The translations under genes were made by a program, and so were the position numbers. A stretch of 21,965 bases of DNA from a virus: IMG/VR virus record IMGVR_UViG_3300008448_000757, positions 1 to 21,965 of that record. The stretch is one strand, 5' to 3'. Shown here piece by piece: positions 4,528-17,883 of this stretch; position 1 is the first letter of the stretch, and each line of letters starts with the position of its first letter. The notes under the pieces are model-generated. The model saw nothing but the letters and a program-made list of their open reading frames with translations, had not been told where the DNA came from and searched no databases.

Positions 4528-4535
4528 TATTTATA
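4528..4535 (+). promoter_or_regulatory. TATTTATA element upstream of gp19
   Basis: An exact TATTTATA followed by ATAAA lies 19 bases before the tail tube ATG. It differs from the T4 late promoter core TATAAATA at two central positions. It is a candidate phage-specific promoter between sheath and tube, where extra transcription of the abundant tube protein would make sense. This is inference. Confidence 0.45.
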
Positions 4536-5111: not shown

Positions 5112-5738
5112 ATGAAACAGTATTTTAAATTAGTTAGACAAATTCTACAAGAGGGTAGAAAAAAGAATGAAGGAATCTACTATGAGGCCCATCATATCAT
5201 TCCTCAAAGTTTTGGAAAGAGATCAGCAACAGTATTAGTAACACCTGAAGAACATTATACAGTTCATAAAATGTTAGCAGAGTACTGGAAAAAGCATTCA
5301 ATCTACGGAAAAAAAATGTTATGGGCATTTCACCGAATTTCTTATGATGGAAAAAGAAAACTAACAAAAGAAGAGTATGGAGAGGCTAGGAGATTGTTAC
5401 AAGACTTGTGGCAAAGTGAAAAAAGTATTTCACATAAGGAAAAAATATCAATTGCGTTAAAAGGAAATACGAATAATTCTACAAGAGTTTACAAGGGAAT
5501 GAAATCCGATATGACCGAAGCAGGTAAAGCCTCTTTATCAAAAAAAACAACAGAAAGACAATTAGGAAATAAACAGTGGACAAAAGGACCGTATACAGTA
5601 ACCTTTGAAAATGGGAAAACAATAAGCAAACAATCCTACCCAGATTTATCTAAAGAAGTAAACATACCCTACGCAACACTACAACACAGACATAAGAACA
5701 GTCCAGGAGTGTTTATGAAAGGGTGGAAGATAGAGTAG
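5112..5738 (+). CDS. Free-standing HNH-type homing endonuclease
   Basis: The N-terminal domain has the phage HNH layout: EAHHIIPQSFG (His27-His28), then TPEEHYTVHKML (His48, His52), as in T4 Mob-type homing enzymes. The usual central Asn appears to be Thr or Val (ATVLVTP), so the motif is non-canonical. Residues ~105-119 (SISHKEKISIALKGN) resemble a NUMOD3 DNA-binding helix. The C-terminal segment (TVTFENGKTI, then SYPDLSKEVNIPYATLQHRH) looks like a NUMOD/HTH specificity region. The gene sits alone between tail tube and gp26-like genes, flanked by terminator hairpins on both sides, as expected for a selfish insertion. No intron boundaries were seen. Activity is uncertain because of the altered Asn. 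Confidence 0.88.
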   Translation: MKQYFKLVRQILQEGRKKNEGIYYEAHHIIPQSFGKRSATVLVTPEEHYTVHKMLAEYWKKHSIYGKKMLWAFHRISYDGKRKLTKEEYGEARRLLQDLWQSEKSISHKEKISIALKGNTNNSTRVYKGMKSDMTEAGKASLSKKTTERQLGNKQWTKGPYTVTFENGKTISKQSYPDLSKEVNIPYATLQHRHKNSPGVFMKGWKIE

Positions 5739-15765: not shown

Positions 15766-15791
15766 AAGGCTTGCTTCGGTAAGCCTTTTTT
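15766..15791 (+). terminator. Intrinsic terminator with C(UUCG)G loop closing the tail block
   Basis: AAGGCTT (15766-15772) pairs with AAGCCTT (15781-15787). The stem continues through a G-T wobble and a C-G pair to a TTCG tetraloop (15775-15778), the very stable C(UUCG)G form also common in T4. A run of six T residues (15786-15791) follows. It separates structural from replication genes. Confidence 0.93.
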
Positions 15792-17619: not shown

Positions 17620-17639
17620 TTGTTTCCATAAAAAATTGC

Positions 17640-17647
17640 TATTTATA
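17640..17647 (+). promoter_or_regulatory. TATTTATA element upstream of the gp32 leader
   Basis: An exact copy followed by CTAAAG, sharing 14 bases with the copy at 5082 before the HNH gene. It lies 236 bases before the gp32 ATG and would give a long leader transcript. Confidence 0.4.
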
Positions 17648-17682
17648 CTAAAGGAAAACGTTATAAAAACTACATAAAAACA

Positions 17683-17690
17683 TATAAATA
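17683..17690 (+). promoter_or_regulatory. TATAAATA, T4-type late promoter core, upstream of gp32
   Basis: This is the exact T4 late-promoter core on the + strand. Initiation a few bases downstream would place the 5' end of the transcript at the base of the hairpin at 17695-17725, giving a structured 5' end. A second TATAAATA occurs inside the 134-aa gene (1270-1277), so the motif alone is not proof. Confidence 0.35.
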
Positions 17691-17694
17691 ATAT

Positions 17695-17725
17695 AGGATA
17701 AGCTACCACTTTGGTAGCTCTTCCT
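17695..17725 (+). promoter_or_regulatory. Hairpin in the gp32 leader
   Basis: AGCTACCA (17701-17708) pairs perfectly with TGGTAGCT (17712-17719) around a CTT loop. AGGA (17695-17698) can pair with TCCT (17722-17725) across a small internal loop. The downstream CTTCCTGTCTT is only moderately T-rich, so it could be a weak terminator of the upstream gene or a structural element of the gp32 mRNA leader. Confidence 0.7.
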
Positions 17726-17820
17726 GTCTTATGCGATCAAGTCACGGAGTATTAATTATTAAAAAAGAAAGGAACAGCAGTTGTAAAACAGAAAAAAAAT
17801 TCATATATTAAAAGAGTAAG

Positions 17821-17862
17821 AGCAAGTAAAAAGCAAGAACAAGTAAGCAAGTAAAAAGCAAG
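17821..17862 (+). repeat. Two 17-base A-rich direct repeats in the gp32 leader
   Basis: AGCAAGTAAAAAGCAAG occurs exactly at 17821-17837 and 17846-17862, a 25-base offset. AAAGAGTAA also occurs at 17811-17819 and 17872-17880, flanking them. The purine-rich sequence cannot fold and lies 21-63 bases before the gp32 ATG. Such unstructured A-rich repeats are plausible cooperative binding sites for gp32 on its own mRNA. Confidence 0.85.
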
Positions 17863-17883
17863 TTAAATTAAAAAGAGTAAAAA

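Follow-up and report, generated by a model that had tools for sequence, protein, structure and literature searches.

The DNA analysed here (the window) is a stretch of 21,965 nucleotides from a virus, in which a region of 264 bases (positions 17620–17883) precedes a gene for a gp32-like single-strand DNA-binding protein. The question raised by this locus is whether the region is an operator through which gp32 represses its own translation. In phage T4, repression by gp32 of its own mRNA begins with nucleation at a pseudoknot, from which the protein spreads across UUAAA/UAAA repeats; both elements are essential (PMC535899). The gene 32 leader of phage RB49 has been described as having no pseudoknot and keeping UUAA/UUAAA units (PMC535899), and a 2010 review gives the A+U-rich sequence as absent too (PMC3014915). 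The literature leaves unsettled whether a gp32 without a leader pseudoknot still controls itself (PMC535899, PMC3014915).

No ORF of at least 50 aa was found between 17619 and 17884. The gene that follows encodes a homologue of gp32, matching Pfam family gp32 above the family cut-off (E = 6e-11) and phrog_1192 (E = 9e-17), and sharing 71% identity with the SSB of Flavobacterium phage immuto; among solved gp32 structures, none was near enough by sequence to be found. The 6-kb replication block around the gene has 78.5% identity to that of immuto and the same order, namely a polymerase A-type gene, a small gene, gp32, a RecA/UvsX-like gene, a 5'-3' exonuclease and a DnaB helicase. On account of this identity and gene order, the window, which is of the freshwater Flavobacterium-phage type, most likely comes from a phage with a Bacteroidetes host. 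Comparison of the leader with other phage records gave no similarity of note. The features of the region are listed in the table.

Features of the gp32 control region and their positions in the window
Feature	Position	Strand	Basis or reading
TATTTATA, motif in this phage group that resembles a late promoter	17640–17647	+	intergenic concentration before structural genes
TATAAATA, non-conserved, probably chance	17683–17690	+	other letters in all four aligned relatives
Hairpin 5' of the main promoter, with stems of 8 bp and 6 bp around an internal loop	17693–17727	+	fold z, relatives
ACGGAGTATTAATT, unpaired and conserved block 3' of the hairpin	17744–17757	+	present in the hairpin-bearing leaders
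GTTG, -33 element of the gp32 promoter	17780–17783	+	pattern in 79 of 81 leaders, genome-wide spacing test
TATATTAA, -7 element (positions -12 to -5)	17804–17811	+	leader pattern, spacing test, Flavobacterium consensus
AAAGAGTAA, copy 1, across the predicted start site	17811–17819	+	exact copy
Predicted gp32 5' UTR (68 nt with 41 A, purine content 79%, predicted to be unfolded)	17816–17883	+	putative track for gp32 binding and site of translation initiation
AGCAAGTAAAAAGCAAG, first 17-base repeat	17821–17837	+	exact repeat
AGCAAGTAAAAAGCAAG, second 17-base repeat	17846–17862	+	exact repeat
GCAAGTTAAATTAAA, most conserved UTR block, two UUAAA units	17858–17872	+	leader comparison
AAAGAGTAA, copy 2	17872–17880	+	exact copy
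gp32-like single-strand DNA-binding protein, 272 aa	17884–18702	+	Pfam gp32 (PF08804), phrog_1192, immuto SSB

A comparison set of 81 gp32 leaders was searched with the strict pattern GTTG-N20-TANATTR, which was found in 79 of them at a single spacing (shuffled expectation 0.3), the remaining two carrying near variants with equal spacing. Four genomes that are complete or nearly so have 38, 27, 31 and 44 sense copies at spacing 20; other spacings in the range 17–23 gave 0–4, and five antisense copies have spacing 20. Promoters of the Bacteroidetes primary sigma factor were defined by a TTTG-type -33 element together with a TAHHTTTG -7 element, the latter being the Flavobacterium consensus at positions -12 to -5 (PMC6847099). 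The window element GTTG-N20-TATATTAA has four of the six fixed letters of TAHHTTTG (T-12, A-11, T-8 and T-7) and lacks T-6 and G-5, the consensus being that of Flavobacterium and the host a presumed one. Judged by this pattern, the gp32 promoter, located between the hairpin and the repeats, appears to be an ordinary host-type (host-sigma-type) promoter. Because it puts the predicted start at about 17816, the main gp32 mRNA would contain the repeats and exclude the hairpin.

The first-pass annotation had described two exact 17-base repeats, bracketed by AAAGAGTAA copies, in an unstructured A-rich leader running up to the gp32 ATG, and this description was borne out. The longest repeated word within the 264 bases has 17 letters, whereas dinucleotide shuffles average 9.6 and only 2 of 1000 reach 17; for 17811–17883 alone, none of 1000 do so. 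The 5' part of the leader holds AGCAAG purine repeats, and five UAAA units are present, two of them UUAAA, so that an unstructured UUAAA/UAAA-repeat region of T4-like character extends to the start codon. The minimum free energy of the UTR is 0 and no stems of 4 bp or more were found in it.

The length of this leader is unusual among relatives. In most of them gp32 starts 28–38 nt after the -7 box, compared with 64–85 nt in seven freshwater leaders (the window, L001, L002, L003/L004, L007, L009 and L010), which corresponds to a leader of ~55–80 nt in this subclade and ~30 nt in the short-UTR relatives (immuto and marine phages). Since the gp32 DNA tree places all seven long-leader sequences, each with the long A-rich leader, in one group (support 85/88), the extension probably arose once. 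The repeats and GCAAGTTAAATTAAA are conserved between leaders. In six of the seven, TTAAATTAAA is found in the 3' half with GCAAG just before it and UUAAAUUAAA lies at about the position of the T4 operator; GTTAAATTAAA is duplicated in L002, L003 and L007. Outside these leaders, GCAAGTTAAATTAAA was rejected as a widespread leader motif: viral contigs contain at least 120 exact copies, and those before open frames lie mostly in unrelated contexts, and the matches elsewhere are therefore mostly chance.

The related genome G001 allowed the leader to be ranked among other genes. Its gp32 has a UTR of 71 nt, while the median for promoter-bearing genes is 24 nt; in our reading of the list, longer leaders are mostly those whose promoter match falls within an upstream gene. 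Among 207 genes, the 60 nt preceding gp32 rank second for A and also for purine content, and the segment from -40 to +20, at 0 kcal/mol, ranks first of 207, ties included. The ~30-nt leaders of immuto and the marine relatives are not unusually unstructured. The immuto leader shares with the window the gene order and the promoter with spacing 20, but has a UTR of 30 nt and neither AGCAAG repeats nor hairpin.

The stable hairpin, with an 8-bp stem (17701–17708/17712–17719) and an extension, was also found as previously described, its extended form having a predicted energy of -19.6 kcal/mol (z = -6.3 against shuffles; -3.4 to -5.2 in relatives). The whole 281-base leader folds no better than its shuffles (z = -0.41), which only the hairpin exceeds. 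The hairpin is retained in five of the seven subclade leaders (the window, L003/L004, L007, L009 and L010), missing in L001 and L002, and absent from all short-UTR relatives. In the five leaders it forms a perfect 7-bp inverted repeat with a variable centre of 5 bases and an invariant upper stem, and pairing of the lower stem is mostly kept despite base changes; covariation among these five sequences, an analysis proposed in the first-pass annotation, was not above that of shuffles. L001 has a different insert at the hairpin place. As the hairpin-less L001 and L002 group with the window in the gp32 DNA tree (support 83/95), the hairpin was probably lost or replaced in them while the long leader stayed.

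The earlier proposal that the hairpin is the nucleation element of the repeat leader was not supported by this comparison, since the promoter conserved across the 81 leaders lies between the two and L001 and L002 keep the long leader without the hairpin. For these reasons the hairpin appears to be a separate, dispensable element that is not required for gp32 control in this clade, and it may serve as a processing signal, a regulator site or an element of late transcripts. Exact scans of the collections found the hairpin only in gp32 leaders of already known contigs, other matches of CACGGAGTATTAATT lying in unrelated contexts. No tRNA or tRNA relic was found in the hairpin region by ARAGORN, and Rfam gave sub-threshold chance matches only and no known RNA family. 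The hairpin was likewise not called as an intrinsic terminator of the T-run type.

Both promoter-like motifs named in the first-pass annotation are present upstream of the hairpin, and their fates differ. TATAAATA was rejected as a T4-like late promoter because the letters at that place differ in all four aligned relatives. TATTTATA is concentrated in intergenic DNA, with 22 of 26, 28 of 34, 23 of 39, 26 of 30 and 7 of 8 copies being intergenic in five sequences where such DNA makes up just 5–11%. On the sense strand it precedes structural genes in the window and immuto, among them those for tail sheath, tail tube, terminase, a gp20-like protein and tape measure; the plus-strand copies of the window are at 4528, 5082, 5780, 6801, 9649, 17155 and 17640. 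In Immutovirus-like phages it may well be the core of the late promoter, for which a literature search for this motif with late promoters found no description. The copy at 17640 has a counterpart at the matching place in L001, L003 and L007 and none in L009 and L010, and could begin a second, longer gp32 transcript at about 17653 that would include the hairpin. TATTTATA corresponds, on the opposite strand, to TATAAATA, the late motif of T4, and immuto, G001, G007 and G008 likewise carry it in sense orientation immediately ahead of structural genes.

The region shares with the T4 gene 32 operator a gp32 homologue, a leader of ~70 nt, and an unfolded 3' part with UUAAA/UAAA repeats to the start codon, with TATAAATA also lying ~155 nt upstream of the T4 gene. 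It had been suggested that the two agree in outline and differ in sequence; the purine-repeat 5' part of the window leader does differ, but TTAAATTAAAAAG / UUAAAUUAAAAAG is shared exactly with T4 at a distance from the ATG that is equal within one base. Where the subclade leaders have TTAAATTAAA, T4 has TTAAATTAAATTAAAAAGG. Taken alone the shared sequence is weak evidence, because G001 and immuto each have an unrelated gene that is preceded by a 12-base match. In contrast to T4, the presumed host of the window is independent of Shine-Dalgarno pairing, and no pseudoknot-compatible stem pair was found in 17620–17883 by a script which recovered the T4 pseudoknot as a positive control, so that the region falls outside the T4 type in this respect. 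The window leader resembles the RB49 leader as described in PMC535899, which has UUAA/UUAAA units without a pseudoknot, but RB49 belongs to another phage group with another host. An operator of the T4 type as first proposed, with gp32 nucleating at the hairpin of a long transcript and spreading over the A-rich stretch that runs from hairpin to ATG, is consistent with the stability of the hairpin in five leaders and with the upstream late motif, whose transcript would include it. It is nevertheless improbable: besides lacking a pseudoknot, the hairpin is cut off from the repeats by the conserved promoter, is absent from L001, L002 and all short-UTR relatives, and is kept in L009 and L010 without the late motif.

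The main alternative is that the A-rich repeated leader is a strong initiation region only, serving a protein needed in quantity in a host without Shine-Dalgarno pairing, with no autoregulation. In Flavobacterium, high translation is associated with low structure and with A at positions -3, -12 and -13 (PMC6847099); in the window, A stands at -3 and throughout -10 to -14, structure is low and the -7 element is like that of the host, and the promoter and the kinship with immuto both indicate a Bacteroidetes host. However, the gp32 leader is repeated and about three times as long as other G001 leaders, and since most other promoter-bearing genes there use leaders of ~24 nt, the ~40-nt repeat expansion exceeds what initiation needs; UUAAAUUAAA is also kept in six of the seven leaders. 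This explanation is possible, though we would not call it probable. That a regulator of the downstream promoter instead binds the hairpin and ACGGAGTATTAATT as DNA, or that they are an RNA processing or termination signal for upstream transcripts, with the repeats being functionless slippage products, we consider unlikely. The perfect inverted repeat with its invariant upper stem would suit a palindromic protein site as well as an RNA, and the ACGGAGTATTAATT block ends ~22 bases before the -33 box. Against this, pairing in the lower stem is largely kept, though not above shuffles, the palindrome occurs once in each genome possessing it, no T-run terminator was called, and the conservation of the repeats and GCAAGTTAAATTAAA does not suit slippage products.

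The explanation that we prefer, while giving it an equal chance of being wrong, is a composite control region with two promoters and a 68-nt leader that may act, with no pseudoknot, as a track for gp32 binding. The two promoter motifs, the distribution over the clade, the absence of predicted structure and the outlying leader length can be read from the sequences, and the start site, host class, gp32 binding and repression are deduced from them. The host-sigma-type promoter would start the main mRNA, whose unfolded, purine-rich leader with AGCAAG and UUAAA repeats would offer an open A-rich landing site to ribosomes of a Bacteroidetes host. Most likely the same leader would also be a track on which surplus gp32 polymerises and blocks its own translation, and the upstream TATTTATA would act as a second, late promoter whose longer transcript carries the hairpin. 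For gp32 binding and repression at the window leader, we take the chances to be about even. The only computed features separating such an operator from a plain translation enhancer are the excess length and the conserved repeats. Such an operator would not be common to the whole family, since the immuto and marine leaders are short and not unusually unstructured. More tentatively, and with the balance leaning against it, the region may represent an operator without a folded nucleator, in which a purine-repeat RNA track, expanded in one subclade, is read by cooperative gp32 binding alone. The subclade provides a natural series with the same promoter, nearly the same protein, and leaders of ~30 or ~55–80 nt with and without the hairpin, and a comparison of its members would tell apart a repeat track, a fold and a plain translation context.

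Several further observations were made on related promoters and neighbouring genes. The pattern GTTG-N20-TANMTT has 27–44 sense copies per genome at one invariant spacing in immuto, G001, G007 and G008, and may represent a class of early promoters. In marine gp32 leaders (e.g., L047, L062, L076 and L080), inverted repeats such as AGAACT...AGTTCT or AGAAAT...ATTTCT fill the spacer between the -33 and -7 elements; these differ among relatives and are possibly operators. In L002 a GIY-YIG homing endonuclease gene (2274–2906) lies directly upstream of gp32, its position and nuclease family being those of SegG in T4, while in L009 gp32 is preceded by tandem related ORFs of 169 aa (1718–2227 and 2260–2769), both with a MENFNLKKFLVENKLTTNS start and the second without a Pfam match. 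In the window, a T-run hairpin at 15766–15787, directly 5' of the DNA polymerase A-type gene, is the most terminator-like site nearby, and a homing-endonuclease-like gene (5112–5738; phrog_655, E = 2e-17) separates the gene for the tail tube from the tail gene that follows.
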